63,601 nt of DNA, taken from contig DAHVAR010000275.1 in the NCBI GenBank assembly GCA_027314515.1, positions 1 through 63,601 on the forward strand, written 5' to 3'. Under the pieces are notes generated by a model. It was not told the DNA's origin and made no database searches. It worked only from the letters and a program-made list of their open reading frames with translations. Below, piece after piece: positions 18,678 through 48,318 of this stretch (positions are counted from its first letter, which is position 1; each line of letters opens with the position of its first letter). Source of the DNA: Actinomycetota bacterium (lineage in GTDB: Bacteria; Actinomycetota; Actinomycetes; Streptosporangiales; Streptosporangiaceae). Made by a program: the position numbers and the translations under genes.

Positions 18678-18688
18678 GCCCGGAGCCG

Positions 18689-18732
18689 GCCGCTCTGTTG
18701 CCGCTCTGTTGCCGCCCAGTTGCCGCCCAGTT
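18689..18732. repeat. Tandem repeat, 11 bp x 4, between galT and galK
   Basis: GCCGCTCTGTT at 18689 and 18700, then GCCGCCCAGTT at 18711 and 18722. The pairs differ in two positions. It fills the convergent gap between the two gal stops. No T-run, so not an obvious terminator. Confidence 0.9.
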
Positions 18733-18737
18733 GCCGG

Positions 18738-19871: not shown

Positions 19872-19906
19872 CAGTGCACAGTAGTCGGCCGGCTACCGCT
19901 CGCCTG

Positions 19907-21178: not shown

Positions 21179-21179
21179 G

Positions 21180-21380
21180 TCAGGTCTCCTCGATGAGCTC
21201 GATGGCGCGCTCCGGACAGTTCGCCACGGCAAGGCGAGCGCTCTGCTCCTCGCCCGGCGGCACCAGGCCGGTCCGGAGGACCTGGCCGTAACCCTCGTCG
21301 TCGTCGCCGAACAGGCTGGGCGCGAGGTCGTAGCACCGGCCGTGCCCCTGGCAGACTTCTGAGTCGATCTGAATCTTCAC
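21180..21380 (-). CDS. 3Fe-4S ferredoxin
   Basis: 66 aa. Three cluster cysteines are visible: C-x5-C in VCQGHGRCYDLAP and the distant C in ANCPERAIEL, with His/Gly where a fourth Cys would be, as in P450-partner 3Fe-4S ferredoxins. It carries electrons to the P450 encoded one base downstream. Confidence 0.93.
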   Translation of the reverse strand: MKIQIDSEVCQGHGRCYDLAPSLFGDDDEGYGQVLRTGLVPPGEEQSARLAVANCPERAIELIEET

Positions 21381-21389
21381 CGCTGTTCC

Positions 21390-22016
21390 TTATTCCGGCG
21401 TGAGGTAATCCGGCGTTCCCGCTCTGCAGTCGGCCGGTGCAAGCGCGGCCACGACGCGGCGCAGCAGCGTCGTCCATGCCGCGTCGTCGACCGCATGCAA
21501 GTCCTCGGTGACGAGCGCGCTGCCCATCGCGAGCAACAGGCAGAAGTGGGCCAGCGCGTCCGGTGAGAGCGCCGGGTCGAGCTCGCCGCCGGCCTGCGCG
21601 ATGCGCATGAGCCCGGCCAGGAACTCGGCGCGTTCCCCCAGGTAGTCACGCAGGGGCTGGGCAACGTCCTGGTCGCGGCGGGCCGCGACCAGCGCTTCGA
21701 CGATGAGGTTGCCGTCCCGATCCCGACGGCGGCGCAGCGACCGGCCGATGACCAGCAGCAATTCGGTGATCGACCGGTCCGGATCGGCCGCGAAGAGATC
21801 GGCCAGCAGCCGTCGGCCGTGCGTCCGCAGCGCCTGCACCAGCAGTTCTGCCTTGGACTCGAAGTGCGCGTAGAGGGCGCCGTTGCTGACGCCGGCCGCC
21901 GCCGCGATATCGGCTACCCGGGCGCCGTCGTACCCGCGCTCGGCGAACACGCTTGCAGCGGCCCGCAGCAGGCGCTCACGCGTGTCGGCGGCGGTCACGC
22001 CCGCGGTGCGGCCCAT
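21390..22016 (-). CDS. TetR-family regulator of the P450/ferredoxin pair (likely)
   Basis: 208 aa from ATG 22016 (MGRTAGVTAADTRERLLRAA). HTH: GYDGARVADIAAAAGVSNGALYAHFESKAELLV. The C-terminal half is the helical ligand-binding domain. An ATG at 22070 is in frame, but a TetR-like element with an AACGTT core flanked by AAAC (read on the plus strand at 22026-22038) lies between, so the shorter start is preferred. It sits nine bases before ferredoxin and P450 in the same direction, arguing for one autoregulated unit. Confidence 0.85.
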   Translation of the reverse strand: MGRTAGVTAADTRERLLRAAASVFAERGYDGARVADIAAAAGVSNGALYAHFESKAELLVQALRTHGRRLLADLFAADPDRSITELLLVIGRSLRRRRDRDGNLIVEALVAARRDQDVAQPLRDYLGERAEFLAGLMRIAQAGGELDPALSPDALAHFCLLLAMGSALVTEDLHAVDDAAWTTLLRRVVAALAPADCRAGTPDYLTPE

Positions 22017-22085
22017 GCCAGAGTTAAACAAACGTTCATCTGATTCGTCAACGGATCGGCGCGAGCTCACCGGACACGATCATCG

Positions 22086-23057
22086 TCACGTTGGCGACTG
22101 CGCCAGCGTCAACCCGAAGTCGCCGGCCGGGTCGGTCCAGAATCCCGCCGCCTTGAGCCCCGCGGCAGCGAGTTCGGCCTCGATGACTGGCCGCCGGAAC
22201 TTAGCCGAGATCTCGGTCCGGAGTTCCTCCCCGGCCGCGAACCAGACCGTCATGGCGAGGTCGCTGATCGTCACCCGCTGCTCGCGCGGCGCCCGCAGCC
22301 GCATCTCGATCCATTCGCTCACCGGGTCCCAGACCGCTACGTGCCGGAAGTCATCGACGGCGAAGTCGGCATTCAGGTCCCGGTTGACGACCCGGAGGAT
22401 ATTGCGGTTGAAATCGGCCGTGACACCCGCCGCGTCGTCGTAGGCGCGCAGCAGCCGGCCGACGTCCTTGACCAGGTCTGTCCCGAGCAGGAAGGTGTCG
22501 CCGGGGTGCAGGGCGGCAGCGACCTGGCTGAGGAAAGCCGCCCGCGCTGGCGGCTCGAGGTTGCCGATGGTCGATCCGAGAAACACGATCATGCGCCGTC
22601 CGCCGCGCGGTACAGCGGCCAGATCGCGTTCGAAATCGCCGACGACGGGGGCTACCCGCAGGCCGGGGTATTCCGCGGCCAGCTTGCTGCTGGCCGCGGA
22701 CAGGACGGTCGGATCGAGGTCGAACGGGACGAACTCGCGAAGGGTCCCGCCGTCCCGCAACGCGCGCAGCAACAGCCTGGTCTTGGCCGAGGTGCCGCTG
22801 CCGAGTTCCACCAGCGACTCGCACCGGGACAGCGCGGCGATTTGCCTGGCGTGCCGTTCCAGGATCGACGTCTCCGCCCGGGTCGGGTAATACTCCGGCA
22901 AGCGGGTGATTTCGTCGAACAGCTGACTGCCGCGGGCGTCGTAAAAATACTTGGGCGGCAGAGTCTTCGGCGTCGCGGAAAGGCCGGCCCGCACGTCCGC
23001 GCGCAGCGTATCGAGGTAACGGGCCGGGTGAGTCTGGACGCGGTTGTCAGCTGCCAT
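22086..23057 (-). CDS. egtD: L-histidine N-alpha-methyltransferase (ergothioneine biosynthesis)
   Basis: 323 aa. EgtD/DUF2260 landmarks: [20 protein letters not shown] near the N-terminus, SAM site [30 protein letters not shown] (histidine-binding Asn), [13 protein letters not shown], and [12 protein letters not shown] (Glu and Ser that contact the substrate). It makes hercynine by trimethylating histidine. Third gene of the leftward egtA-egtB-egtD run, 32 bases after egtB. Confidence 0.93.
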
Positions 23058-23089
23058 CAGTCATGCCTCCAGGCGAGGTGACGGCACAC

Positions 23090-24352
23090 TCAGGCGTCCC
23101 AGGCCAGCCGGACACCGGTGAAGATCTGCCGCCTTATCGGGTAATCCCAGTTGCGGAACGACGGCCGGATGGTGGACGGGGCGACCGCCCACGACCCGCC
23201 GCGCAGCACCTTGAAGTCACCGCCGAAGAACGGCTCGCTGTAGCGGCGGTAGATCATCGGTGTGAACCCCGGCCACGGCGCGAAGTCCGACGAGGTCCAT
23301 TCCCAGACGTCGCCGATCAGCTGCTCGGCACCGTAAGCCGACGCGCTCGCCGGATAGGCCCCCACCGGAGCCGGGCGCAGCCCCTGACCGCCAAGGTTGG
23401 CCAGGCCGGCCGAGGGCGGCGCGGATCCCCATGGCCAGGAGCGCCGTGCCTGGCGGTCGGGGTCCCATGCGCAGGCCTTCTCCCATTCGATCTCGGTCGG
23501 CAGGCGCCCGCCCGACCACGCGGCGAACGCCTCGGCCTCGAAATAGCAGACATGCTGCACCGGCTCGCCGGGCGGGACGTCCTCCTCGATCCCGAAGCGA
23601 CGGCGGGTGCCCTCGGCGGTCCAGAACTTCGGCCGCTGAAGGCCCGCCTCGGTCCGGTGCGACCAGCCGCGCGCCGACCACAGGCCAGGCCGGTGATAAC
23701 CGCCGTCGGCGATGAAGTCGCTCCACTGCCGGTTGCTCACCGGCACCCGCCCGATCCAGAAGGGCGCGACGTCGACCCGGTGCGCCGGGCGCTCGTTGTC
23801 GAGCGAGAACGGCTCGGTGGCCGCATCGGCGCCCAGCACGAACGGGCCGCCGGGGACGAATACGCGCTCGCCGTCGACCGGGCGGCCGGCCGGCAGCGGC
23901 TGTCGCGCGAGCAGGACGGGCGGTCCCTGGCGCAGTTGCAGCGTCGCGTACATGGTCTCGTCGTGCTGTTCTTCATGCTGGACAACCATGCCCGCGGTGA
24001 ACAGGTCCTCTTCGGGCGTGCGAGCCAGCAGGTCGAGCACCCGGCCGCGCACTTCGTAGTTGTACGCCCTGGCCCCGACCGGCGGGAGCAGCGGCAGTGC
24101 CGGGCGGTCGGCCCGCTTGTGCCTGAACGCGTCGTAGAGCGAGTCGACCTCCGGGGCCAGCATGCCTGGCCGGGCAGGGTCACCGTTGCGCAGCAGCCAG
24201 AGTTCTTCCTGCTGGCCGATGTGAGCAAGGTCCCAGACAAGCGGGCTCATCAGCGGGTCATGCTGAGCCAGCAACTCGGGCTCGTCCAGGTCGGTCAGCT
24301 CGAGAGTGCGCGCGCGGGCGCGCTCGAGGTCCCGAACCACGTTCTCATGCAT
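23090..24352 (-). CDS. egtB: Hercynine oxygenase (sulfoxide synthase)
   Basis: 420 aa. DinB-like N-terminal domain with the iron ligands [13 protein letters not shown] and the HxxxHxE pair [14 protein letters not shown], then the FGE-sulfatase-like domain ([57 protein letters not shown]). The NWD in the last motif corresponds to the Asp that binds gamma-glutamylcysteine in the mycobacterial enzyme. It joins hercynine to (gamma-glutamyl)cysteine with oxygen. ATG overlaps the egtA stop by eight bases. Confidence 0.93.
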
Positions 24353-25640
24353 GAGCCAGCTCCTCGAATGCGGCGCGCGGCCCGACCTCCGCGATGCGCC
24401 GGGCCAGCAAGTCGCCGGGGCACCAGCCGGAGTCGACCAGCTCGGCGAGGTCCGCGACGGCTGACCGGAGCCCGGCCGGCACGCGCTCGGCCGCGATCCG
24501 CACGCAGCGGCGAGCAGACTCCGCCAGCCTGCGGTTGCGCAGCCCCTCGCGGGCCGCGACCGTCCACAGCGGGGCGGTCCCCTCGGTCGCCTCGGTCATC
24601 CGGTCGGCTGCGACCGGATCGTCCATCAGCGTCGCGACGATCGCGGCGATCGCTGGCCACCAGCGCGGCGCGGTCATGTCGAGATATCGCAGCTCGAGGT
24701 AGCCGCGCAGGCGAACCGGCGGGAACAGCGTGGTCAGGTGGACATCCAGGTCAGCTGTCGTCGGGAGCCGGCCGTCCAGCCGGACGGCGCCGCTGGCCCA
24801 GCGCTCGAACGGTACCGGGACACGCACGGCAGTCGCGTTGTCCGTGCCGGACCGGACGAAGGCCACCGGAGCTGCCATCGCGTAGCTGGCCCAGGCCGAG
24901 GCGGGGTCCAGAACGTGATCGGCCGCGGCGTCCGCGGCGACGCAGCCGGGCACCGGCCCGCACGATCGCGGATCGAGCCCGGCCCAGGCTCGCTGACGCG
25001 CCGACTTCCAGCCGGTGTCGCGCCCGCGCAGCCACGGAGAGCTCGCCGAGATCGCCACCAGCGTCGGTCCGAGCCGGTAGGCGCGGGCGACTCGCTGCGG
25101 CCACTCACGTCGCGGCCCGGCCTGCAGGTTGACCTGCATCGCAGCGGTGGAGTTCATCATCACAGCGCCCGCCGCCGCCCGCCCGGTGGCAGCGAAGTGC
25201 TGCTCCATAGCCTGATAGCGCGGCCGCGGGTTAACTCGCCGCGGTGACCGGAGCGGGTCAGCGCCCGCATGCGCCAGGCCGAGGCGCAGCTCGGCTAGCG
25301 CCAGCCGGGTCCTGGACATGTCATGGCGTAGCAGGGCAAGGGCGGATTCGATGGCCGGCGCCGGCGGACTGGACAGCTCCAGTTGGCCGCCTGGTTCGAG
25401 GGAGACCTTGCTGTGCGCACCGGCGGAGCCGAGGACCTTCACCATCGCGCCGACCCGGTCCCAGGGCACCGGCTCGGATACCGAGTCCAGGTCCACGAGG
25501 TGCGACTCGATCTCCAGCCCCACCTGGCCAACGTGCGACTCGGTGAGAGCCGCGCGCCTCGATCGCTCGTAGGCGCGCTCGACCGTCAGTGGCTCGGCCT
25601 GATCGGTGGCGTGACCCGAGGCAGCATGCAGGACAGTCAT
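24345..25640 (-). CDS. egtA: Glutamate-cysteine ligase for ergothioneine synthesis
   Basis: 431 aa. GCS2 family: [12 protein letters not shown] at the start, [33 protein letters not shown] (metal/substrate region) and VTL-type strand [13 protein letters not shown]. It makes gamma-glutamylcysteine, the sulphur donor for mycobacterial-type EgtB. CTGGAGGGG precedes the ATG. Heads the operon egtA-egtB-egtD; the usual amidohydrolase gene egtC is not between egtB and egtD. Confidence 0.9.
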
Positions 25641-36599: not shown

Positions 36600-37472
36600 C
36601 TACTTAAGGCCCGTCATCGCGATGCCCCGGACGATGTGCCGCTGCAGGAACAAGAACATGATCAGTACAGGGATCATGCTGGCGAACACCATTGCCAGGA
36701 TGAAGTTGTACGGCACGGCCTGTTCGCCGCTCAGCAGGCCGAGCGCGACCGGCAGGGTGTAGACGTTCGGCGACTGAGCCACGATGAGGGGCCAGATGAA
36801 ATCGTTCCAGCGCCAGCCGACGCTGATGATGGCCAGCACGATCAGGGCCGGCTTGCCATTCGGCAGGACCACCCGGATGAACGTCCGGAACTCGCCGGAG
36901 CCGTCGATCCGGGCCGCCTCGATAAGCTCGTCGGGCACCGACAGGAAATACTGGCGCATCAGGAACACGCCCGTCGGGGTTGCCGCCGGCGGGATGATGA
37001 GCCCGAGCAGCGAATTGACCAAGTGCAGGTCGACTACGACCTGGTAAATCGGGACCAGGATGACCTGGACCGGAATCATGATCGTGGCCAGCACCACGAT
37101 GAACAGCACATTGCGCCCGCGGAAGTTGTACTTCGCCAGCGCGTAGCCGGCTGTCGCGCTCAGCGCCAGCGTCAGCAGGGTGGCGCAGACGGTCACGATC
37201 AGGCTGTTCCTGAAGTAGGTCAGGAAATCGAACTGCTCGAAACCGCCGGTGTAGTTGGCGAAGCTGAGCGAGGTCGGCAGTGACAAGGGCTGACCGAGCA
37301 GTTGCGTCAGCGTCTTGAAGGAGCCGATCCCGATCCAGATGATCGGGGTCACCGACATTAGGCCGGAGCCGATGAGCAAGGCGGTCCTGACGATCGCCCA
37401 GGTGCCAGGCGGGCGCCGCCTGCCGCCGAGCGAGGTCCAGGTCGCGGCGGGCTTGATGCCAGCGGCGGTCAT
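36600..37472 (-). CDS. ABC sugar permease (MalG-like)
   Basis: 290 aa, six membrane segments (first TALLIGSGLMSVTPIIWIGI). The EAA loop is EAARIDGSGEFRTFIRVVLP, the docking site for an ATPase not encoded here. ATG at 37472 overlaps the stop of the partner permease (ATGA). Part of the importer for the uronate locus. glpD follows 38 bases downstream. Confidence 0.9.
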   Translation of the reverse strand: MTAAGIKPAATWTSLGGRRRPPGTWAIVRTALLIGSGLMSVTPIIWIGIGSFKTLTQLLGQPLSLPTSLSFANYTGGFEQFDFLTYFRNSLIVTVCATLLTLALSATAGYALAKYNFRGRNVLFIVVLATIMIPVQVILVPIYQVVVDLHLVNSLLGLIIPPAATPTGVFLMRQYFLSVPDELIEAARIDGSGEFRTFIRVVLPNGKPALIVLAIISVGWRWNDFIWPLIVAQSPNVYTLPVALGLLSGEQAVPYNFILAMVFASMIPVLIMFLFLQRHIVRGIAMTGLK

Positions 37473-38398
37473 GCCGCACCTCTTCTTCTGCCGATGACGA
37501 AGTTCACCAGGGTGAGCACCAGCAGCACCAGGAAGAGCAGCACGCTCGCGGCCGTCGCGAGGCCGAAGTTGATCGGCGGGACGAACGAGTGATCGTAGAT
37601 GTACTGGATGATCAATGTGGTCGCCCCCACCGGGCCGCCGCCGGTGAGCGTCCACAGGAACTCAAAGGCCTGGAATCCGGTGATCGTGCTCAGGATGAGC
37701 ACGATCAGCAGCGTGGGCCGCAAGCTAGGCAAGGTGATCTTGCGGATCTGACGCCATTCTGAGGCACCGTCCACTCGCGCGGCTTCGAACAGGCTTGGAT
37801 CGATCGCCTGCAGGCCGCCCAGAATGATGAGCGCATAGAAGCCCAGCGTCGCCCAGAGTTCCACGAAGATCACGGCGAGCATGGCCAGATGTGGCTCCAC
37901 CAGCCAGCCCGGCTGGCCGAGGCCCAGCTTGGCGAGGAGGGCGTCGATCACACCGGAGTTCGGCTGCAGCAGCCAGTTCCACAGGATGCCGACCACGACC
38001 GGCGAGATGAGAACGGGGACGTACACCGACGCACGGAACAGGCCGCGGGCCCACCGCTGCGCATTCAGCAGCAACGCCAGCGCGGTGGCCAGCACCAGCG
38101 TGCAGCCGACGTACCCGACGACGAATTCGAGCGTGTTGCGCACCGCCGACCAGAACTCCGCGTCGGTCACCAGCGCGTGGTAGTTGGACAGCCCGTTGAA
38201 GCTTGACGATTGCCCTTCCACCAAGCTATAGAAGCTCTCCCTCACCCCGTTGAGCATCGGCCAGATGCTGAACAAGCCGACCGCGACGAGGTTAGGCAGG
38301 ATGAACAAGTACGGGGCAAGGCGGGCCCTGGGCGGGCGCCCCGGCCGGCGCGCCTGGCGCCGGCCGGGGATCGCTGATGGTGCTGTTAGTCCTTGCAC
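37469..38398 (-). CDS. ABC sugar permease (MalF/UgpA-like)
   Basis: 309 aa. Six membrane helices starting with YLFILPNLVAVGLFSIWPML; EAA loop EAARVDGASEWRQIRKITLP. Pairs with the permease downstream to form the channel of a CUT1-type sugar importer. Lies 21 bases after the binding-protein gene. Confidence 0.9.
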   Translation of the reverse strand: MQGLTAPSAIPGRRQARRPGRPPRARLAPYLFILPNLVAVGLFSIWPMLNGVRESFYSLVEGQSSSFNGLSNYHALVTDAEFWSAVRNTLEFVVGYVGCTLVLATALALLLNAQRWARGLFRASVYVPVLISPVVVGILWNWLLQPNSGVIDALLAKLGLGQPGWLVEPHLAMLAVIFVELWATLGFYALIILGGLQAIDPSLFEAARVDGASEWRQIRKITLPSLRPTLLIVLILSTITGFQAFEFLWTLTGGGPVGATTLIIQYIYDHSFVPPINFGLATAASVLLFLVLLVLTLVNFVIGRRRGAA

Positions 38399-38419
38399 TG
38401 CGCGCTCACCTGCGGCAGT

Positions 38420-39715
38420 TCAGCTCTTGCCGTTAGCGGCAGCAGCTGCCGCCTCAGTTGCCGCGACGGCCTGCGCCACCGAGGCCTTCCCGGCCACCAC
38501 ATCGGTCAGCTCGTTCATCAGGGCCAGGCTTGCGGCCGTATAGCCGGGGTTTGCCTCGGACAGGCTGAACCCCGCGGGCATCAGCGTCGCCGCCTTGTTG
38601 AAGACATCCATGCTGGTCGCCACAGTCGCCGGGTACTTGATGCTGCCCGGCGCAGCGAGCGACGCGGCCGACGGAATGGTGTCAGACTGCACGCTCATGT
38701 AAGCCTGGTTCACCGGCTCGCTCATGAACTTGATGAACGCCTCGGCAAGCGCCGGATCATTCGACTTCCTGAACGCAACCATGTAGTTGCCACCAGACCC
38801 GCCGCCGCAGTTGACATCGCAGGGGTTGGGCACCGCGGTCCACTTGAATGAGGCTGAGCTGGCGAACGCCGCGACTTCCCAGCTGCCCGACAGCAGGACC
38901 GGGGCCTGCTGGCCGAGAAACTCGGTGTCGCCCGCCACGTAATTCTCGCCGCCGGCGATCCAGGAGGCCTTCGAGATCTTGTTATGCGAGATGAGACCCG
39001 CGAGCGTGCTCATGGCGCTGGTCGCGGCCGGGGTAGCGAGTGCGCCATGTCCGTCACTGCCGAACAGGAACGTCCCGTACTGAGCGAACACGTTCGCCAC
39101 CCGGTCCCCGGAGTGGTCGATGGCCAGGGCAAATGTCGTGTGATTGGCGGCCTGCACTTTCTCGGCAGCGGCGATGAGCTGGGACCAGGTCCACTTCGAG
39201 CTCACCGTCGGGATCGGCACGCCGGCCTTCTGGAACATGCCGACGTTGACGAACGCACCCATCACGGTCAGCTGGTTCGGCAGCCCGATGTAGCCGCCCT
39301 TGTACGCGACCGAGGCCATCAGGTTCGGGTTCAGGCTGTGCACCCAGGACGGACCGAGAGCCGCGCCAAGGTTGATGAGCTGGGATGCGTAGAGCTGGGG
39401 CTCGGTCGTCTGGACCACCGCGGGCGGCTTGCCCGCGCTCAGCTGGGCCTGGATCTCCTGGTCCAGGTCGGTGTACGGGACGGTGTCCAGCGTGACGGTA
39501 CCCCCGGTCTGCTTCTCGAACTTTGCGATGAGGGTCTTGGTCGCCTGCAGGTCCGGGCCGTTGGTGAAGTACAGGTAGGTGATCGACTGGCCGGCAAACT
39601 TGCCGGAGGACGCCGGGGTGCTGGCGCCGCATGCGGCAGCCAGCAGGGACAACAGGACGCCGCCGACGGCCAGCGGGCGCCAGTAGCCCGCCCTGTTCAT
39701 GGTTGGGGGTCTCAT
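38420..39715 (-). CDS. Sugar-binding lipoprotein of the ABC importer
   Basis: 431 aa. Signal peptide ends in the lipobox [11 protein letters not shown] (Cys lipidated, anchored outside the membrane). The mature part is a family-1 solute-binding protein (LIAKFEKQTGGTVTLDTVPY, QAPVLLSGSWEVAAF). Context predicts unsaturated or saturated oligogalacturonides/glycuronan oligosaccharides as ligand. ATG 39715 overlaps the aldolase stop; ATG 39700 is an alternative. Confidence 0.9.
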   Translation of the reverse strand: MRPPTMNRAGYWRPLAVGGVLLSLLAAACGASTPASSGKFAGQSITYLYFTNGPDLQATKTLIAKFEKQTGGTVTLDTVPYTDLDQEIQAQLSAGKPPAVVQTTEPQLYASQLINLGAALGPSWVHSLNPNLMASVAYKGGYIGLPNQLTVMGAFVNVGMFQKAGVPIPTVSSKWTWSQLIAAAEKVQAANHTTFALAIDHSGDRVANVFAQYGTFLFGSDGHGALATPAATSAMSTLAGLISHNKISKASWIAGGENYVAGDTEFLGQQAPVLLSGSWEVAAFASSASFKWTAVPNPCDVNCGGGSGGNYMVAFRKSNDPALAEAFIKFMSEPVNQAYMSVQSDTIPSAASLAAPGSIKYPATVATSMDVFNKAATLMPAGFSLSEANPGYTAASLALMNELTDVVAGKASVAQAVAATEAAAAAANGKS

Positions 39716-40320
39716 GGTGCATCTCCTTCGATGAGATTCCGGATTGCTGTCGGAAGATCTGGTTCAGCTAGCAGGTCCCGCCCGACGCCGACCGCGAGAG
39801 CGCCAGCGGCGAGCCAGTCGGCTGCATCGGCCAGCGCGATGCCGCCAGTGGGGATGATGGGAGCGCCAGGACTGAGCGTTAGTACTGAGCGGAGGAACTG
39901 CGGGCCGCCGACGTGCGCGGGAAACAGCTTGGCGATGCCGCGCCGGGAAGCGGCAAGCACCTCGCCGACCGTCATGCCGCCCTCGATGAATGGCAGCCGT
40001 CCCGCTGCCAGCCGCCGTACCGCTGGCGCCGGGCAGGGGCTGACCAGGAAGTCCGCCCCGCCCGCCAGGGCGGTCGCGGCATCGGTGGCGGTCAGCACTG
40101 TCCCGACGCCGAACAACCGGCCGGGGAAACTGCCGCGTGCCTCGGCAAGCACAGCCGGCCAGCCGGCAATGGTCGTCGTCAGCTCGATCACGTCGAGCCC
40201 GGCACCCGCGCAGCGCTGCACCTGTGCGATCGCCTCCGCGGCCGAGCCGGCCCGCAGCACCGGAAGTACCTTCGCGCGCCGGAGCCGGTCGCGCAGCCCG
40301 GCCTGCATGTCAGCCGGCAT
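39712..40320 (-). CDS. eda: 2-keto-3-deoxy-6-phosphogluconate aldolase
   Basis: 202 aa. Class I aldolase of the KDPG/KHG family: LDVIELTTTIAGW (catalytic Glu), ADFLVSPCPAPAV, Schiff-base Lys in GIAKLFPAHVGGPQFLRSV, and phosphate site PTGGIALADAADWLAAGALA. It splits KDPG into pyruvate and glyceraldehyde-3-phosphate, the last step of the uronate route. The ATG overlaps the kinase stop by 11 bases. Confidence 0.92.
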   Translation of the reverse strand: MPADMQAGLRDRLRRAKVLPVLRAGSAAEAIAQVQRCAGAGLDVIELTTTIAGWPAVLAEARGSFPGRLFGVGTVLTATDAATALAGGADFLVSPCPAPAVRRLAAGRLPFIEGGMTVGEVLAASRRGIAKLFPAHVGGPQFLRSVLTLSPGAPIIPTGGIALADAADWLAAGALAVGVGRDLLAEPDLPTAIRNLIEGDAP

Positions 40321-41245
40321 CGGGAGCCTCCGCGAGCATCGGCGCAAGCACGGCTATCTGAGCGCGGCAGCCGTGGTCGGTTGAACTCGCGATCACCGCG
40401 GCCGCCACGGCATGGCCGGCTCGCAGCCCCGACTCGAGTCCGCCCCCGCGGAGTCGGCTGGCCAGGTAGCCCGCAGCGAACGCGTCGCCGGCACCGATCA
40501 CGTCGACGACTTCCACCGCGTCTGGCAGGGCGATCGCGCTCCCGGCGGCGCCGAAAGCGACGGCCTGACGCGGGCCGTCCTTGACGACCAGCTCGGCTGA
40601 CCGGGGAAAGAGCTGCCGGATCTCGCCGGCTGTCGTGCAGCCCCAGAGCTGACGTGCTTCGTCCAGGCCGACGAATACGTAGCTGGCCCTGCTGGCAAGG
40701 TCGAGCAGCACCGAGCCAGCTCGCTGCGGGCTCCACAAGCCCGGCCGGTAGTTGATGTCGAACGAGGTCGTGCGTGATCCGGCCTGGTCCAGCTCGGCGC
40801 GGACAAGCCTGGCACAGGCCGCCGAGAGCGCCGGGGTGATGCCGCTCAGGTGGACATGCGTCACCCCTTCGTGCGCTCCGTCCGGAAGCTGCCCGAAGGC
40901 GCTCGCGGCCGAGCGAGCGCGGTAGTAGTACACCGTCGCCTCTTCCGGCTTCAGCTCCTTCAGGTAGCACCCGGTCGGCCGTCGCGGATCGGCGAGCAGG
41001 CTGGAGGTATCGACGCCCTCGCTGTCGAGAACGGCGAGCAGCTTGCGACCCCATGGATCCGCTCCCACCATCCCGGCGAACCTGGCGGCCAGGCCCAGCC
41101 GGGCCAGCTGGACGGCCACGTTGAATTCGGCTCCGCCAGCGGAAACCTGAAGGGTGCCAGCGCTCTCCAAGGGCTCGCCGTCAGCCGGCGAGAGGGTGAT
41201 CAGCGCCTCGCCGATGCACAAGATCATGGGGTCGGCCGCGCTCAT
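40310..41245 (-). CDS. kdgK: 2-keto-3-deoxygluconate kinase (PfkB family)
   Basis: 311 aa. PfkB signature VIGAGDAFAAGYLASRLRGG near the C-terminus with the catalytic Asp, and substrate-side AGGAEFNVAVQLARLGLAA at ~31-50. Phosphorylates KDG to KDPG. Its place between the GH105 gene and eda, with overlaps at both ends, supports KDG over other sugars. Confidence 0.9.
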   Translation of the reverse strand: MSAADPMILCIGEALITLSPADGEPLESAGTLQVSAGGAEFNVAVQLARLGLAARFAGMVGADPWGRKLLAVLDSEGVDTSSLLADPRRPTGCYLKELKPEEATVYYYRARSAASAFGQLPDGAHEGVTHVHLSGITPALSAACARLVRAELDQAGSRTTSFDINYRPGLWSPQRAGSVLLDLASRASYVFVGLDEARQLWGCTTAGEIRQLFPRSAELVVKDGPRQAVAFGAAGSAIALPDAVEVVDVIGAGDAFAAGYLASRLRGGGLESGLRAGHAVAAAVIASSTDHGCRAQIAVLAPMLAEAPDAG

Positions 41246-42300
41246 CGGTGGGCCCCGGTGAGCGCGTCAACGGCAGCGGCGATGGCCAGCAGGGCCAGTC
41301 CCTGCCCCCACGGCTGCGGCCGGTCTGATCTGATCACGCTGTAACCGAAGGGAATCAGCTGCAGGATGGTGCCCGCGCTCACCCTGGTCAGGTAGCCGCG
41401 CTCGTCGACGTAGCCGAGCGCGCCACGCAGCGCCAGCCAGCCGGCCTCGCGCACGCGGTCGAACCGGCCAGGATCCAGCGCGGCCGCCCTGAGCATGGCC
41501 GCCGCCAGCCCGGCGGCGGCCGACGTCTCCGCGAGGCCGGCTGTCTCTGGCTGTCCGTCGACCAGCACATCCCACACGCCATGGTCGGGCTGGTACGCGG
41601 TCAGGGCGGTGAGCTGGCGCTCCAGTCGCTGGCTGACCTCCTCGGCGCCGGTCACCGCCAGCCCGGCACTGGCCTGCAGGAACTCGACCGCCGCCAGGGC
41701 TGCCCAGGCGTTAGCCCGGCCCCAGAAGCACCAAATGGTCTCACCGTGATGCGAGCCGTGCGCGAAGAGCCCGTTCCGGTCATCCTGCAGTACCCGGGCG
41801 TGCATGATGAACTGCCGCCCGGCCTCCTCGATAAATCCGGCGTCGCCGGTGGCCCGGCCGAGGCGGGCCAGGAAGGCGCCCGCCATGAACGTCGTGTCGG
41901 CCCACAGGCCGCCGGGCCAGTGCTCGAGCGCGCCCGACGGCGACCTGCGCGCGCGCGCGACCCAGTCGGCGTACGGCCGCAGCTGCGGCCCGAAGCCGAC
42001 GGCCACTGCGGCCGCGGCCGGCGCGACGTCGTTGACGTGCGCGATCTCGGGCTCGGGCGTCAGGTGCTCGCCAATCCAGGCGTGCACGAGCTTGTCGTCC
42101 CCGCTGCCCGCGGCGAGGCCGAAGGCGGCGAGACCAGCCAGCGCGACGCCCTCGCCCCAGAACCAGCGATGCAGGCCATCGGCCCAGGTGCGGTGCGCAA
42201 GGCTGGCGCCAAGCGCGGTCAGCCCGGCAGCGGTGACCGCAGCCAGCGGCGCCCGTGGCGGCTCGGCCAGCAGCGCCGAACTCAGGTCCTCAGCAGGCAC
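41242..42300 (-). CDS. Unsaturated uronyl hydrolase, GH105/GH88-like
   Basis: 352 aa, (alpha/alpha)6 fold, no signal peptide. Landmarks: HRWFWGEGVALAGLAAFGLA, HVNDVAPAAAAVAVG, GGLWADTTFMAGAFLARLGR (acid residue region), HGETIWCFWGRANAWAALA. GH105/GH88 enzymes hydrate the 4,5-double bond of the non-reducing-end uronic acid left by polysaccharide lyases, releasing 4-deoxy-5-keto-uronate, the substrate of KduI. GTG start overlaps the lyase-candidate stop by 11 bases. Confidence 0.82.
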   Translation of the reverse strand: MPAEDLSSALLAEPPRAPLAAVTAAGLTALGASLAHRTWADGLHRWFWGEGVALAGLAAFGLAAGSGDDKLVHAWIGEHLTPEPEIAHVNDVAPAAAAVAVGFGPQLRPYADWVARARRSPSGALEHWPGGLWADTTFMAGAFLARLGRATGDAGFIEEAGRQFIMHARVLQDDRNGLFAHGSHHGETIWCFWGRANAWAALAAVEFLQASAGLAVTGAEEVSQRLERQLTALTAYQPDHGVWDVLVDGQPETAGLAETSAAAGLAAAMLRAAALDPGRFDRVREAGWLALRGALGYVDERGYLTRVSAGTILQLIPFGYSVIRSDRPQPWGQGLALLAIAAAVDALTGAHR

Positions 42301-45040
42301 GGCCGGATACCTCCGCTGCCTGCCCGCGCCGGACGCGCGCGATATCTAGCACCATGCGGTGCCCTTGGTAGCTGGCATCGAGGGAGTCCGCTCCGAGCAG
42401 CATCGTGCACGCGGGATTGTCGAGGTGCACGCTGACGTCGGGCCGACCGTCCGGGCCGACATCCGGCGGTATGCCGTCCACCGTGAACGACCGGCTGCCG
42501 GTGAGAGCAAGCCGTCGCCCGTCTCTGGTGGTGACGGTGACACCCGTTGCGTCGGGACCGGCTCCGAAGCCCGGTTCGGCCAGGGCGCTGACGAATGCTT
42601 CGAATGACCCGTCCTGGCCGGCGCTGCCGACGGTGGTAACGAAAGCCGTGCCGTTGCCTACCGGCAGCCACTCTTGGTGCGCGGTGCTGCCGGTCTCCAC
42701 CGCGGCCAGCCCGCCGGCACAGGCGATCGCGACGTAGCCGCGACCGACGCGCCCGGCAAGCCACGAGCCATTACGGGTGGTCTCGTCCATGAGCGGCGCC
42801 GGGAACCACACGTGCGTCGGCAGTTCCCTGGCTCCCGGGTAGCTGGCGAGCACAGTGTCCCGGTCCTGGCGCGCGCGGGGCAGTACGCGCTGCCCGGCCC
42901 AGGCATTCGGCCGGGCGCTGGGCGAATCTGAACTGGACCCCGGGTAGGTGGCGAATACCTGTACCTCAGGCGCGAGCGTCGCACCGAAGCTGTGCTCCTG
43001 AAGTCCGGGAAGCCCGGCGCGGTAATCCTGGACTGAAGACAGCATCGCGTGCGCGGTCTTCCAGACCCGCAGGTCCGACCCGTAGGACCGGCTCAGCAGG
43101 TCGCGCGTGAATGCGTACTGGCCCTGGTAGACCTGCCGTCCCCACCACGGCTCGTCGAAGCCGGTGGCTACCGACCTGATCAGGGCCGGCAGCCTGTAGC
43201 GCCGAGCCCGGACAAGGCACGTCGCGGGCAAGATGGCCCGGTTGAGCGCGCCGGTACCCCACAAGCCCCACATGATCGGCGCAGTCTCCTCGAAACGAGA
43301 CGAGCGGAGCGTCTGGGCGTACGACCGGCCGTGCGCTGCGCCGTGGATCCCGTGCCAGGAGTTCGCGGCCAGCGTGAAGAGCAGCTTGTCGAGCAAGGCT
43401 TCCGCGCCGGCGCGTACCTCCTCGTCTGCCGCCAGCTCGACGAGGGACGTGAGGGCCAGCGTGTCGATGGCAAGGTAGGCGTTCGAGTCGAACTCGCTGA
43501 ACCCGCCAGCCAGCTTCGCCCGGATCCACTGCAGTCCCATCTCCCGGCCGTGCCGGGCGTGCTGAGCACCGCTCCAGCCGGTATTCCGGAACATCTCGCC
43601 GGGAAAGGCCTGGCCTGCCAACAGCTCAGCAGTGTGGAAGACGAGCTGGTGGTTCTCGGTGAAGTAGCACATCGCGTCCAGGCCAGGCTGGTCGATCCAG
43701 TACTTGAAGCCCAGCAGCGCATCCTTGACCTCGTCTCGCGTGGCGGCCGGCCAGTCCTCCGGGGCCGGCAGCGCGTGCCACAGGTTCAGCAGGCCTACTG
43801 CCTCGAAGTCAGCGCAGTCGGCCCGGTTGCGCAGCATGAACAGGGCCTGGCGCAGGTCGGGGGGTTCCAGGGCCGGGCGCGTTGCCAGTGCCGAGGCCGC
43901 CAGGGCCCTGGCCACGCTGGGCGCTGCCGTCGCAGCGTGTTCCAGGACCTCGCGCTGCCAGACCACTGAATCCTCGCCGGCCGGCTGACTGCGAACCTGC
44001 TGCGGAAGCACGGCAACCGTCAGCTCGCGGAAGACCGGGCAGCGCTGGTCGTCGACGCGGACGGTGAGGGTCGTCTCGCCGGTGCTCAGCATCGATGCAG
44101 AACCGTCATCAGCGTTCCGCGTCCCCGCGGTGAGCGGCAGCACGGCCCGGCCGTCGGCCATGACGAGGGTCTGGGCCGGGCAGTCGGGAATCGCGACCTG
44201 CAGGGCGACACCGGCGGGGCCGGACAGGCCGGCCGCGCCTGCTGTCACCGCCCAGGAATCCAGGGCAATGGCTTCGAGCACTCCTTCCGCCACGGCACTC
44301 GCCTGCTCGTCCGCGCCGGGCGAGGGGATGACGACCCGTACCGGAAGGCCGTCGATGGCAACCCTGGCGACGTGCCGCACCTCGCGGAAACCGACCTGCC
44401 AGGTCGCGATCAGCAGCGGCGTTTCCCCGGACCGCAGCCGAACCCGGATGGTATTGGTCACCGGCTCCATATAGGAAACGTCGGTGAACGTGGCTACCAG
44501 ATCTCCGCCGAGCCACAGCGCGATGGGGCCGGTCGAGCCCACTTCGACGGTCCGCCACTCCGGCTGGTCGACCTCGATCACTGCACCTGCCACAGCGTGC
44601 CGGTACTCGGGAAGGAAGCAGAACTCGCTCCAGTCGATCAACCCGTCTGGCTGTGCGTAGAACCTGCGCCAGGCGCCCGAGTCGGTCCGCGATCCGCCGG
44701 GCGCGACCCAGGTCACCGGGCCGCCTTCGGCCAGCGCAGGCAGCGTCTGGTCAACCACGAGCGGCCGCCGCTGGTAGATCCGCCCTTTCAGCGGGGCGAC
44801 CTCAGGCCCCTGAGTCAGGGTCCAGCGCCCGTCGTCCCCCCACGGCGATCCGTCTGCGGCCAGGAAAGCGTCCAGATCGTCGCATGGTGAGCCCCATGCG
44901 GGACTGACAAGCCAGTCCCTGATCGCACCGTCCCGGCCAAGCGCATGAGCCGTTCTGCCGTCGGCACCAGCTGAGGCTTGCTTCGCCACCTCGTCGTCAC
45001 CTTCCAGGTCGTAGCTTTGCGTGGCACAATACGATTTCAT
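42290..45040 (-). CDS. Large cytoplasmic protein, candidate polysaccharide lyase
   Basis: 916 aa from ATG 45040 (alternatives GTG/ATG to 45064). I cannot assign a named family. The N-terminal ~300 residues are beta-rich and carbohydrate-binding-like (RDWLVSPAWG, EFCFLPEYRHAVAGAVIEVD, GPIALWLGGDLVATFTDVSY). The middle (~390-680) looks like an alpha/alpha toroid with conserved-looking blocks YFTENHQLVFHTAELLAGQ (~460), GFSEFDSNAYLAIDTLALTS (~515) and SWHGIHGAAHGRSYAQTLR (~563), rich in Asn/His/Tyr/Arg as in beta-eliminating lyases. The C-terminal ~230 residues are beta-rich. There is no signal peptide. First gene of the leftward operon that ends in GH105, kinase, aldolase and importer. Confidence 0.7.
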   Translation of the reverse strand: MKSYCATQSYDLEGDDEVAKQASAGADGRTAHALGRDGAIRDWLVSPAWGSPCDDLDAFLAADGSPWGDDGRWTLTQGPEVAPLKGRIYQRRPLVVDQTLPALAEGGPVTWVAPGGSRTDSGAWRRFYAQPDGLIDWSEFCFLPEYRHAVAGAVIEVDQPEWRTVEVGSTGPIALWLGGDLVATFTDVSYMEPVTNTIRVRLRSGETPLLIATWQVGFREVRHVARVAIDGLPVRVVIPSPGADEQASAVAEGVLEAIALDSWAVTAGAAGLSGPAGVALQVAIPDCPAQTLVMADGRAVLPLTAGTRNADDGSASMLSTGETTLTVRVDDQRCPVFRELTVAVLPQQVRSQPAGEDSVVWQREVLEHAATAAPSVARALAASALATRPALEPPDLRQALFMLRNRADCADFEAVGLLNLWHALPAPEDWPAATRDEVKDALLGFKYWIDQPGLDAMCYFTENHQLVFHTAELLAGQAFPGEMFRNTGWSGAQHARHGREMGLQWIRAKLAGGFSEFDSNAYLAIDTLALTSLVELAADEEVRAGAEALLDKLLFTLAANSWHGIHGAAHGRSYAQTLRSSRFEETAPIMWGLWGTGALNRAILPATCLVRARRYRLPALIRSVATGFDEPWWGRQVYQGQYAFTRDLLSRSYGSDLRVWKTAHAMLSSVQDYRAGLPGLQEHSFGATLAPEVQVFATYPGSSSDSPSARPNAWAGQRVLPRARQDRDTVLASYPGARELPTHVWFPAPLMDETTRNGSWLAGRVGRGYVAIACAGGLAAVETGSTAHQEWLPVGNGTAFVTTVGSAGQDGSFEAFVSALAEPGFGAGPDATGVTVTTRDGRRLALTGSRSFTVDGIPPDVGPDGRPDVSVHLDNPACTMLLGADSLDASYQGHRMVLDIARVRRGQAAEVSGRAC

Positions 45041-45060
45041 CCCGGCTGACTGCAAGACCA

Positions 45061-45075
45061 TTCCGCTGTACGGAA
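45061..45075. promoter_or_regulatory. Inverted repeat TTCCG-N5-CGGAA, candidate IclR operator
   Basis: TTCCGCTGTACGGAA is centred in the 51-base divergent gap between the lyase-candidate gene (start 45040) and kduI (start 45092). A 15-bp palindrome fits IclR-family sites. The IclR protein at 46671 belongs to the same locus. CGGAAAGAAGG also serves as the kduI ribosome binding site. Confidence 0.5.
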
Positions 45076-45091
45076 AGAAGGCTTGTGTGCG

Positions 45092-45907
45092 ATGGACGTT
45101 CGCTACTCCACTCATCCCGACGAAGTGCCGCACCTGACCCCGGCCGAGCTGCGCGAGCGATTCGTCGTCGCCGATCTGTTCGTGCCGGGGCAGGTCCGGA
45201 TGGCAATGTCGTTTCATGACCGGCTGGTTATCGGCGGAGCGGTCCCGGCGCACGGGGCGATCCGGCTGCCTGCGCCGGCCGAGCTGCGCTGCGAGCACTT
45301 CTGTGATCGCCGCGAAATGGCGATCGTCTGCCTGGACGGGACGGGCGCCGTGACGGTGGACGGCACGAAGCAGCCGATGCACGCCGAGGACATCCTCTAC
45401 GTCGGCAAGGGAAGCCAGTCCGTGGAGTTCGCGGGTGACGCGACGTTCTACTTCGTCTCGGCGCCCGCGCACCAGTCACTGCCGGCCAGCCTCGGTACCC
45501 GCGCGGCGGCTGAGACGCACGAGATCGGCGACGCTGCGGTAGCAAGCGCCCGGACCCTGCGCAAGTACGTGCACGAAGACGGCATTGCCTCGTGCGAGCT
45601 AGCGGTCGGCATCACGACGCTGGCCGAGGGCAGCGTGTGGAACACCATGCCATGCCACACGCACGAGCGGCGCACCGAGATTTACCTGTACTTCGGCCTC
45701 CCCGACGATGCCAGGGTGGTCCATCTGTGCGGCCGTCCGGATGCCACCCGCAGCCTGATCGTCGCTGACCGCCAGGCCGTCATCAGCCCGCCATGGTCGA
45801 TCCACACCGGCGCGGGAACCGCGCCGTACCGATTCGTGTGGTCAACCGGCGGCGAGAACCTCGCCTACAACGACATGGATCTGGTCGAGACCCGGGGCCT
45901 GCGATGA
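45092..45907 (+). CDS. kduI: 5-keto-4-deoxyuronate isomerase
   Basis: 271 aa, cupin-type. Zinc ligands: CHTHERRTEIYLYFG (His, His, Glu) and PPWSIHTGAGTAPY. N-terminus MDVRYSTHPDEVPHLTPAEL is typical. It isomerises 4-deoxy-L-threo-5-hexosulose uronate to 2,5-diketo-3-deoxygluconate. Starts an operon kduI-kduD-iclR with ATGA overlaps. Confidence 0.93.
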   Translation: MDVRYSTHPDEVPHLTPAELRERFVVADLFVPGQVRMAMSFHDRLVIGGAVPAHGAIRLPAPAELRCEHFCDRREMAIVCLDGTGAVTVDGTKQPMHAEDILYVGKGSQSVEFAGDATFYFVSAPAHQSLPASLGTRAAAETHEIGDAAVASARTLRKYVHEDGIASCELAVGITTLAEGSVWNTMPCHTHERRTEIYLYFGLPDDARVVHLCGRPDATRSLIVADRQAVISPPWSIHTGAGTAPYRFVWSTGGENLAYNDMDLVETRGLR

Positions 45908-46674
45908 ATTCCTGGCTGACCGACCAGTTCGGGCTGTCCGGCACGACCGCGCTGGTCACCGGCGCAAGGACGGGCATCGGCCGGGAGATCGCTGTCACGC
46001 TCGCGCACTGCGGCGCGGACCTGGTGCTGTGCGGACGCACTGCCGGAGCGCTGGCGGATGTCGCCGACGAGGCACGCCGCGCCGGCGCGGCGGTGCGCGC
46101 TGTCGGCCTCGAGATGTCAGACCTTTCCGCGGTGCGCGAGACTGCCCAGCGGCTGGCCGACGATGCGAAGATAGACATCGTGATCAACAATGCCGGGATC
46201 ATCCGGCGCGGCCCGCTGCTCAGCGCCGACTGCGCCGACTGGCACGAGGTCCTCACCGTGAATCTGGACGCGGTGCTCGAACTGACCAGGCCGCTCGCGG
46301 CTGCCATGATCACCCGCGGCTTCGGCAAGATCGTGAACGTGGCGTCCTTGCTGTCGTTCCAGGGCGGTATCAATGTCGCCTCCTACGCGGCTAGCAAGCA
46401 TGCCCTGGTGGGACTAACCCAAGCCATGTGCAACGAGTGGGCCGCGCTCGGCGTGAACGTCAACGCGGTGGCACCCGGTTATGTCGAGACCGATAACACC
46501 GCACCACTGCGGGCAGATGCCCGGCGGTATGCCGAGATCAGCGCGCGGATCCCGGCGGGCAGGTGGGCAAGGCCCGCCGACATAGCTGGCGCCGTCGCTT
46601 TCTTGTGCGCGCCTGCCGCGAGCTACATTCATGGCCAGGTCCTGGTCGTCGACGGCGGCTGGATGGCGAGATGA
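45904..46674 (+). CDS. kduD: 2-deoxy-D-gluconate/2-keto-3-deoxygluconate 3-dehydrogenase (SDR)
   Basis: 256 aa. SDR motifs TGARTGIG, NNAG (VINNAGIIRRGPLL), catalytic Ser in NVASLLSFQG and YAASK (Tyr/Lys). MNSWLTDQFGLSGTTALVTG is a KduD-like start. Reduces 2,5-diketo-3-deoxygluconate to KDG with NADH. ATGA overlap with kduI. Confidence 0.9.
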   Translation: MNSWLTDQFGLSGTTALVTGARTGIGREIAVTLAHCGADLVLCGRTAGALADVADEARRAGAAVRAVGLEMSDLSAVRETAQRLADDAKIDIVINNAGIIRRGPLLSADCADWHEVLTVNLDAVLELTRPLAAAMITRGFGKIVNVASLLSFQGGINVASYAASKHALVGLTQAMCNEWAALGVNVNAVAPGYVETDNTAPLRADARRYAEISARIPAGRWARPADIAGAVAFLCAPAASYIHGQVLVVDGGWMAR

Positions 46675-47531
46675 CCGCACTCGAGCCGATTGCCGACCCT
46701 GCTAGCGGGGAACGGCTCAGCGCGATCGGCAAGCTGGTCTCCGTCGTCGAGGTGCTTGCCACGGAGAACAAGGTGTCGCGGATAGCGCGGGCAACCGGCC
46801 TGGCTACCTCTACAGTCCACCGGATCCTGCGCGGCCTTGTCGAGGTCGGCTGGGCACAGGAGGACGAGGAACACGGCTACCTTCTCGGCGCCCGGCTGCT
46901 GGCGATCACCGCTCGCGCGGACGACGCCTCGTTCCTCGTGCAGAAGGCGGCGCCGTTCCTGCGTGAGCTCCGGGACGCAACCGGCGACACCGTCCACCTG
47001 GCGACGCGCCGCGGCGACGAGATGCTGTACGTGGCGAAGCTGGATGGCCGCAAGGCCTACCAGATGCGCTCGCATGTCGGCCTGACGATACCGCTGCACT
47101 GCACTGCGGTCGGCAAGGCGATGCTTGCCGCCACGCCCGTCGACGAGGTCCGGGCCACCCTGGCGCGAACCGGGCTGCCCGCCCGGACCGAGCGCACGTT
47201 CACCAAGCCCGGGGCATTGATTCAGCACCTGCAAGCGGTACGCGGCCTGGGCTACGCGCTCGATGAGCAGGAGAACGAGGCGAACATCCGCTGCATCGCA
47301 GCGGTCATCTTCGGGCCGCGCGGGCTGCCGATCGCGAGCGTGAGCATCTCCTCGTTGATCTACGATCTCAACGGCCCGAAAGTCGGGCGCTGCGCTCAGC
47401 TAGTTGTCTCGGCGGCCCGCGGAATCTCTCGGGCCCTGGGCCATCCCCATGACGGCAGCTTCGCCACGACGCAGCAAGCATCGAACGTGAGCAGTACGGC
47501 CGCCGCGCCAGCCAGCGAGGCCGGCTGCTGA
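46671..47531 (+). CDS. IclR-family regulator of the uronate locus
   Basis: 286 aa. Winged HTH VSRIARATGLATSTVHRILRGL (residues ~35-56) and an IclR effector domain with GDTVHLATRRGDEMLYVAKL and LHCTAVGKAMLAATP. By analogy with KdgR it probably represses the divergent operons and is released by KDG. ATG overlaps the kduD stop (ATGA). The Ser/Ala-rich C-terminal tail (~20 aa) is unlike the family. Confidence 0.9.
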   Translation: MTALEPIADPASGERLSAIGKLVSVVEVLATENKVSRIARATGLATSTVHRILRGLVEVGWAQEDEEHGYLLGARLLAITARADDASFLVQKAAPFLRELRDATGDTVHLATRRGDEMLYVAKLDGRKAYQMRSHVGLTIPLHCTAVGKAMLAATPVDEVRATLARTGLPARTERTFTKPGALIQHLQAVRGLGYALDEQENEANIRCIAAVIFGPRGLPIASVSISSLIYDLNGPKVGRCAQLVVSAARGISRALGHPHDGSFATTQQASNVSSTAAAPASEAGC

Positions 47532-47585: not shown

Positions 47586-47622
47586 CCTTGAAATCCTAGC
47601 TTTGCACGTTAATATTTCAAGG
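47586..47622. repeat. Perfect 9-bp inverted repeat in an AT-rich leader
   Basis: CCTTGAAAT (47586-47594) and ATTTCAAGG (47614-47622) with a 19-base spacer. It lies in a markedly AT-rich island directly before the ATPase remnant and could be its promoter/operator or a hairpin. Confidence 0.7.
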
Positions 47623-47635
47623 CGCGGAAGGAAAT

Positions 47636-48318
47636 TTGCTGCCGCGTGCGCACGACACAGACCGGCTGCAGAACGCGCTAGCACAGGCGCCCGTCGTCCT
47701 GCTGACCGGTCCGCGCCAGGCAGGAAAGTCAACCCTGGCCCGCGATGTCGTCAAGCCCAATCCCGCGCACCTCTTCGACCTGGAAGACCGCGCGACGACG
47801 CAAGGCTGGGTGAGCCGACCCTGAGCCTGTCCGATCTCGACGAGACCGTCGTGCTGGACGAGGCGCAACGCAGGCGCGACCTGTTCCCGGTGCTTCGGGT
47901 TCTTGCCGACGAAGACCCGCGCCCTGGGCGGTTCCTCGTCCTCGGCAGCGCCTCACCCGAACTGACTGGCCTGGCGTCAGAGTCCCTGGCAGGTAGGGCC
48001 ACGACGCTAGAACTCGGCGGGTTCCGTCTCAGCGACGTGGGCGCGGATGCGATGGACCGGTTGTGGCTTCGCGGTGGCCTGCCTCGCTCGTACCTTGCCC
48101 GAGACGAACGTGTCTCGCAGGCGTGGCGTGACGAGTACATCGCCACGTTCCTGGAGCGGGACCTGGCGAACCTCGGCATCCGGGTACCGGCGGCCACCAT
48201 GCGACGGTTCTGGTCCATGCTGGCCAATTTCCACGGCCAGCTCTGGAGCGGCGCGGAACTCGCGAGGTCGCTGCGGGAAGCTGGGGATCGAGGTGAAACG
48301 AACTGATCAGCCGCTGAG
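47636..48318 (+). pseudogene. AAA ATPase with DUF4143 domain, broken
   Basis: The first part (TTG start after [26 protein letters not shown] is the P-loop) reads to FDLED. Inserting one C at about 47788 restores [20 protein letters not shown] and joins the downstream frame [40 protein letters not shown] and [20 protein letters not shown]. After ARSLR the gene jumps to LGIEVKRTD in another frame, a motif of the C-terminal nuclease-like domain, so ~150 codons are deleted. The intact family often behaves as mobile or toxin-like cargo. Confidence 0.8.

Follow-up and report, generated by a model that had tools for sequence, protein, structure and literature searches.

We propose that a ten-gene locus (positions 36600-47531) in a 63,601-nucleotide stretch of DNA from a Streptosporangiaceae bacterium (the window; contig DAHVAR010000275.1 of assembly GCA_027314515.1, our C169) serves the intracellular breakdown of uronic-acid-containing oligosaccharides, and that its 916-residue protein, P916 (42290..45040, minus strand), is likely an intracellular β-eliminating uronate lyase within an importer-to-Eda uronate route. 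The draft assembly comprises 5,857,151 bases in 280 contigs and is 97.9% complete, and the relatives of the window mark it as actinobacterial. An earlier sequence-only reading had described ten genes in two divergent transcription units, and all of them are present with the families it named; Pfam places nine of the ten, P916 being the exception. On the minus strand the order is P916, a GH105-type unsaturated uronyl hydrolase, the kinase KdgK, the aldolase Eda, an extracellular sugar-binding protein (SBP) and the permeases permA and permB, and on the plus strand KduI, KduD and an IclR-family regulator (the ATGA overlaps were read by eye), with adjacent genes in both units overlapping or lying about 20 bases apart. 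The same gene order recurs in two related loci (L001 and L028) and, until its contig ends before the IclR gene, in a third (L003); hence, the arrangement is not a matter of chance.

The evidence consists of the genes and their order, the fold class predicted for P916, its conserved residues and its conserved neighbourhood, from which reactions, import, ATPase partner and regulation may be read as follows. A short uronic-acid-containing oligosaccharide would enter through the binding-protein-dependent ATP-binding cassette (ABC) importer, which would draw on a shared UgpC/MsmX-type ATPase, and cytoplasmic P916 would cut it by β-elimination at the 4-O bond of a uronic acid, with Asn463 neutralising the carboxylate, His464 or His683 taking the C5 proton and Tyr522 protonating the leaving oxygen. 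The 4,5-unsaturated uronyl end left by this cut would then be taken off by the GH105 enzyme, and KduI, KduD, KdgK and Eda would turn the released uronide into pyruvate and glyceraldehyde-3-phosphate, the locus as a whole being controlled by the IclR regulator. The conserved cluster suggests the order of the reactions. Having seen no extracellular lyase gene, the sequence-only reading had left two options, that oligosaccharides are cut inside the cell or that an enzyme encoded elsewhere cuts the polymer. We favour the former, and what that reading overlooked was P916 as the probable intracellular lyase; on visual inspection, neither P916 nor the GH105 protein shows a signal peptide. With such an enzyme, the unsaturated end could arise without help from a lyase encoded elsewhere.

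The full-length AlphaFold model of P916 is confident (mean predicted local distance difference test score, pLDDT, 90.5; predicted template modelling score, pTM, 0.91), as is that of residues 350-905 modelled alone from a trimmed alignment (pLDDT 90.6, pTM 0.93). It predicts N-terminal β domains (residues 29-344), an α toroid (358-626) and a C-terminal β sheet (632-905). A Foldseek search with the 350-905 fragment returned 435 matches at E≤10 and nine at E≤0.001, and all nine are uronate-active toroid enzymes, namely dermatan sulfate epimerase 1, four heparan-sulfate-lyase/heparinase III entries, GAGase II, the alginate lyase Atu3025 (twice) and chondroitin AC lyase; a PL33 enzyme ranks tenth. 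As far as the model goes, P916 therefore has the fold of the toroid superfamily, an α toroid followed by an antiparallel β sheet, in a remote form. The arrangement predicted for P916 is that of the toroid lyases of families PL8, PL12, PL15, PL17, PL33, PL35, PL39 and PL40 and of dermatan sulfate epimerase, and its conserved Asn-His pair, Tyr and second His are candidates for the catalytic residues of these enzymes by their similar spacing. P916 differs from these enzymes in that its sequence matches neither solved chains nor a set of Hepar_II_III_C proteins, in carrying approximately 320 residues of N-terminal β domains before the toroid, and in its apparent lack of a signal peptide.

Residues that would suit such a lyase are conserved. 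In an alignment of 45 members, made of the P916 of the window and those of 44 of 75 related loci (the other 31 were excluded on visual inspection as redundant, too short or interrupted by stops within the match), H464, Y522, E462 and R572 are invariant, and N463 and H683 are each present in 44 of the 45 rows. The distances between them are 58 residues (H464-Y522), 59 (N463-Y522) and 161 (Y522-H683). In the excerpted text of PMC11921355, the corresponding His-Tyr spacing is 54 in Atu3025 (H311/Y365) and VBAly15A (H226/Y280) and 56 in the Saccharophagus PL17 lyase (H202/Y258), with H226-Y280-H446 of VBAly15A giving 54 and 166, and an Asn-Tyr spacing of 60 (N245/Y305) is given for the PL40 enzyme Uly1040 in the part of PMC12915356 available to us. 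N463, H464, Y522 and H683 are thus candidate catalytic residues, judged by a spacing along the sequence that is like that in published lyases. The same excerpt on VBAly15A describes H446 as dispensable as a base and the H226A variant as keeping 18% of activity (PMC11921355), and either of the two histidines of P916 may therefore act as the base. The His-x-His of the metal tetrad described for PL39 and PL40 in the available part of PMC12915356 is not found in P916, which has His683-x-Phe685; position 685 is Trp in 28 of the 30 actinobacterial rows and in all 15 others.

At the sequence level, P916 matched no Pfam family (E≤0.1) and no NCBIfam model (E≤0.01), and neither phmmer nor the 45-row profile retrieved a PDB chain at E≤1. 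Over all 45 members, Pfam returned weak matches only, each in one or three members (best E 0.014), and no PL family. We see in P916 a promising candidate for a new family of known fold rather than a new kind of system. It is possible, if rather doubtful, that the locus merely scavenges oligosaccharides derived from pectin or glycosaminoglycans, as other operons do, and that P916 belongs, as a divergent member, to a CAZy lyase family already described: its fold belongs to the same superfamily, and its family status was judged by Pfam, NCBIfam and the PDB, which leaves room for an existing CAZy family number. The absence of a Pfam match in P916 itself, the few and weak ones among the members, and the lack of any PDB match by sequence or profile speak against this. 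If P916 is indeed a lyase, it adds a lyase family for which no Pfam, NCBIfam or PDB sequence representative was found, and which spans Actinobacteria and Anaerolineae as well as one planctomycete and one spirochaete genome, and it makes an intracellular route for acidic oligosaccharides testable in soil and small-genome actinobacteria. Among the literature titles listed, none described such a locus.

Relatives of P916 were collected by a scan of genome contigs, which gave 75 P916-related loci from 91 candidate stretches; the number of loci leaves out L076, which is the window, and L077-L079, which repeat L028, L013 and L019. They come mostly from Actinobacteria, then from Anaerolineae/Chloroflexi, with one planctomycete and one spirochaete, and share 30-65% identity over the best segment. 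Two of them, L049 and L069, lie in one assembly and cover different parts of P916, and may be one gene counted twice. A 1709-residue frame for the planctomycete protein was rejected because it differs from the frame of the match. Among the 296 genomes of the class to which the window belongs, P916 occurs in five, that of the window and four outside its family. The P916 gene of the window possibly starts at GTG 44989 (899 residues) instead of ATG 45040, since the matches of many relatives begin near residue 28 and residues 1-21 have pLDDT below 50.

No single homology connects P916 with uronate catabolism as well as its neighbourhood does. By tblastn at 1e-12, the 75 loci contain matches to permB in 56 cases, permA in 55, SBP in 54, GH105 in 45, KduI in 36, KduD in 33, IclR in 25, KdgK in 13 and Eda in eight, counts to be read with the facts that many loci end at contig ends and that those for transporter and short-chain dehydrogenase/reductase (SDR) genes include paralogs. 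For the 57 actinobacterial loci, GH105 is found no more than 1 kb from P916 in 44 of the 53 whose downstream flank reaches 900 bp, permB no more than 1.2 kb away in 44 of the 54 whose upstream flank reaches 1.5 kb, and KduI nearby in 24 of the 40 that extend 5 kb or more to both sides. In four loci (L032, L033, L036 and L040) we observed two KduI-like genes, which flank the transporter-P916-GH105 block; one of them may have a role in a different step.

Several observations weigh against a lyase bound to this route. The fragment of P916 aligns with the nine toroid enzymes at template modelling (TM) scores of only 0.25-0.37 by query length and at 8-12% identity, hence we regard it as a remote member of the fold class. 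Its first structural match, human dermatan sulfate epimerase 1 (4.0e-06), is an epimerase and not a lyase, and dermatan sulfate epimerase shares catalytic residues with the toroid lyases. P916 might then be a C5 uronate epimerase acting on the imported oligosaccharide, the unsaturated end coming from a lyase outside the cell or from another organism. We regard this as quite improbable, given that the epimerase leads heparan sulfate lyase (2.2e-05) by a small margin and that GH105, which needs an unsaturated substrate and stands beside P916 in most testable actinobacterial loci, would be left unexplained. Moreover, a profile-profile comparison of P916 with 24 Hepar_II_III_C proteins, whose reading frames were picked by script, gave a probability of 3% (E 0.015 as a single comparison) over a different stretch, and with that probability no sequence-level homology to this set is demonstrated; a second hhalign alignment, which does pair the Asn-His and Tyr motifs, is not significant (E 0.18). 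The genome of the window itself encodes a Hepar_II_III_C protein on contig C135 (L087:5833-7836), beside glycosyltransferase-like and asparagine-synthase-like genes (by eye), and its role is probably in exopolysaccharide biosynthesis.

The carriers of P916 outside the full cluster point the same way. Among the nine actinobacterial genomes without GH105 beside P916, a GH88/105 gene above cut-off is found elsewhere in three and nowhere in six; the Anaerolineae loci L054-L060 and L062-L068 gave no GH105 or KduI match at 1e-12, and three of eight Anaerolineae genomes with P916 hold a GH88/105 gene above cut-off. In the 16 actinobacterial genomes without KduI nearby, PF04962 matches form two score groups: seven genomes have a match in the KduI range (82-113 bits; the KduI of the window scores 84), and nine show only the higher group (266-294 bits), which we take for IolB. 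Since there are carriers without GH105 or KduI, P916 can exist apart from the full route. DhuI is described in the accessible part of PMC12838403 as an unrelated isomerase for the KduI step, and this protein could stand in for KduI in such carriers. The six actinobacterial genomes without any GH88/105 gene above cut-off would also fit a P916 that is a glycoside hydrolase or another non-eliminating trimming enzyme, the locus using fragments already made unsaturated by others. The whole-length Foldseek search is indeed led by GH2-type glycosidases (1.7e-07), with complement C4 and α-rhamnosidases also appearing. We set these matches aside, as in the 50 rows listed their TM-scores by query length are 0.10-0.17 and the root-mean-square deviations are mostly 25-34 Å, which suggests stacked β domains in the model and not a shared fold. 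Given also that the catalytic fragment alone matches lyases and that the Asn-His/Tyr/His pattern is conserved, a hydrolase appears unlikely, and an intracellular lyase remains our preferred reading of P916.

The enzymes downstream of the proposed cut are complete by gene family, in agreement with the gap-free chain from unsaturated uronide to pyruvate and glyceraldehyde-3-phosphate that had been drawn from the sequence. The GH105-type protein (41242..42300, minus strand) matches PF07470 at 123.9 bits (the GH88 family in Pfam), and its best PDB match is the GH105 protein 4xuv (2.8e-23). D135 and H181, which stand 46 residues apart and are each kept in 95% or more of 50 aligned rows (46 distinct), are what we take to be the equivalents of D143 and H189 of YteR, where the spacing is the same. 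By sequence family and catalytic Asp/His, it is thus assigned to GH105; its exact specificity is not fixed by the family search, as the sole NCBIfam match is a β-galactosidase BglB model at 140.3 bits against a cut-off of 420. KduI, the 5-keto-4-deoxyuronate isomerase (45083..45907, plus strand; start probably 45092, by eye), reaches 343.8 bits against the cut-off of 250 of the NCBIfam equivalog PRK00924, matches the solved KduI 1ywk (2.9e-70), and is the only one among the matches listed that passes an NCBIfam cut-off. For the 2-dehydro-3-deoxy-D-gluconate 5-dehydrogenase-type SDR KduD (45904..46674, plus strand; start probably 45904, by eye), which passes the Pfam cut-off, the two top NCBIfam models are both KduD (292.7 and 290.2 bits, both under the cut-off, which is 338.85 for the latter), and the position directly after KduI fits this call. 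The 2-keto-3-deoxygluconate (KDG) kinase-type PfkB kinase KdgK (40310..41245, minus strand) passes the Pfam cut-off (PfkB, 174.8 bits), scores 147.1 against an NCBIfam cut-off of 440 bits, and has the KDG kinase 1v19 as its best PDB match (2.4e-42). Eda, the 2-keto-3-deoxy-6-phosphogluconate (KDPG)/2-keto-4-hydroxyglutarate (KHG) aldolase (39712..40347, minus strand), likewise passes in Pfam (PF01081, 90 bits) and scores 112.5 against 156.05 bits in NCBIfam; its PDB matches are KDPG aldolases and designs based on them. Because their NCBIfam scores fall below the cut-offs, the names KduD, KdgK and Eda rest on family and context. The IclR-family regulator (46671..47531, plus strand; start probably 46671, by eye) matches IclR_C at 156.7 bits and HTH_IclR at 40.1 bits, and scores 149.5 against the NCBIfam KdgR model, whose cut-off is 275.

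The sequence-only reading had named a parallel kdu/kdg route elsewhere as a finding that would refute its proposal, and we found no such route in the genome. The draft assembly has one copy each of KduI/IolB, Eda and GH88/105 (above cut-off), all in this locus; a second GH88/105 match scores 20 bits, under the cut-off of 26.6. No second copy of these three was found, KduD and KdgK not being searched genome-wide, and given the draft assembly a partial second route may exist.

The importer is of the CUT1 type. PermA (37469..38398, minus strand) and permB (36600..37472, minus strand) match BPD_transp_1 at 76.2 and 77.5 bits, the latter over 36600-37478; the start of permB was corrected from 37655 and is probably 37472, in an ATGA overlap read by eye. 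SBP (38420..39715, minus strand) belongs to the SBP_bac_8/1 family (SBP_bac_8, 92.7 bits), carries a lipobox-like LLAAAC (by eye), and in the PDB matches chiefly the binding proteins of ABC systems for sugars or oligosaccharides (best 2.5e-13). As had been noted before, the locus holds no ATPase gene. Of the earlier proposal that a shared MsmK-like ATPase powers the importer, the stand-alone ATPase exists, on contig C182, and the pairing is our inference. Genome-wide there are four OB_MalK and three TOBE_2 matches. The C182 ATPase scores 446 bits against the UgpC subfamily cut-off of 432, and stands alone, flanked by genes for an AsnC-type regulator and an acyl-CoA-dehydrogenase-like protein (by eye). 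The OB_MalK ATPase on C18 is also above this cut-off (436.5 bits) but stands with permease-like genes, and it was rejected as the shared ATPase together with the TOBE_2 ATPases on C73 and C242, each of which lies beside permease genes (by eye); a further OB_MalK match, on C234, is weak (27.4 bits). By sequence, a shared ATPase powering the importer is plausible.

Among known systems, the Dickeya pectin route also offers a close comparison. In a route of this type, KdgK and Eda follow KduD. In Dickeya pectin and rhamnogalacturonan use, GH105 feeds KduI and KduD, according to the accessible part of PMC12838403. The locus described here differs in that the proposed lyase lies inside the cell and in no assigned family, in that the importer is of the CUT1 type, and in that its ten genes hold no other lyase, rhamnosidase or rhamnose gene. 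The PL27 L-rhamnose-α-1,4-D-glucuronate lyase is described, in the part of PMC8377490 available to us, as performing β-elimination at the end of a glucuronate side chain. Such a side chain is one possible kind of substrate for this locus; no PL27-named entry appears among the 50 rows listed for either P916 structure search.

The locus in the window holds no evidence on its substrate and allows no ranking of substrates. Alginate is disfavoured, because alginate products bypass KduI. In three relatives a glucuronoyl-esterase-family gene stands beside KduD (by PF22244 in L013:3829-5076, 115.7 bits, and L034:3814-5124, 83.6 bits; by tblastn in L012:3838-5076, 69% identical), which argues for glucuronate rather than galacturonate in these loci; visual inspection of the proteins of L012 and L013 shows no signal peptide. 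The L012 contig is titled as a Bifidobacterium breve metagenome-assembled genome, and eight of its genes share 69-98% identity with their counterparts in L013, which belongs to a 1.4-Mb Actinomycetia genome; probably, either the title is in error or the contig was misbinned. The esterase genes led us to consider a lyase that acts on 4-O-methylglucuronate and releases methanol, and no further evidence for it was found. Arabinogalactan was considered from GH30_2-type genes 2.4-5.4 kb from P916 in four Kutzneria loci (by Pfam in L042, by tblastn in the other three), which lie outside the operon.

Other relatives stand beside sulfoquinovose-type genes. A sulfoquinovose-isomerase (SftI)-like gene lies within 10 kb of P916 in the Anaerolineae loci L054, L062, L063, L066 and L068, accompanied by a transaldolase in all of these except L066, by TauE in L054 and L062, and by an alkanesulfonate-monooxygenase-like gene in L062 and L063. 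The small-genome actinobacteria L012 and L013 have an SftI-like isomerase, a PfkB kinase and a LacD-type aldolase downstream. The SftI scores are far below the model cut-off of 700 bits (L062 320, L013 266; the others by tblastn). Of 36 P916-bearing genomes, 22 have a match and none is above cut-off; scores of at least 180 bits, a line drawn after seeing them, among many related genomes and with no rate for genomes without P916, occur in 13 of 18 non-actinobacterial genomes, four of seven from the group L012-L015, L018, L019 and L034, and none of 11 other actinobacteria. The genome of the window has no SftI-like gene. These neighbours fit the idea that P916 founds an intracellular lyase family acting on a glycan of uronic acid and sulfoquinovose, or a similar sugar, and releasing the sulfosugar directly; we regard this as a long shot, and we know of no glycan joining the two.

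Two further features of the window lie outside the locus. Just past the IclR gene, positions 47602-48306 encode an AAA-type ATPase fragment without the N-terminal P-loop part (by eye). Positions 17568-25640 hold galactose-1-phosphate uridylyltransferase and galactokinase genes, followed by a minus-strand ergothioneine-type egtD/egtB/egtA set (by eye).

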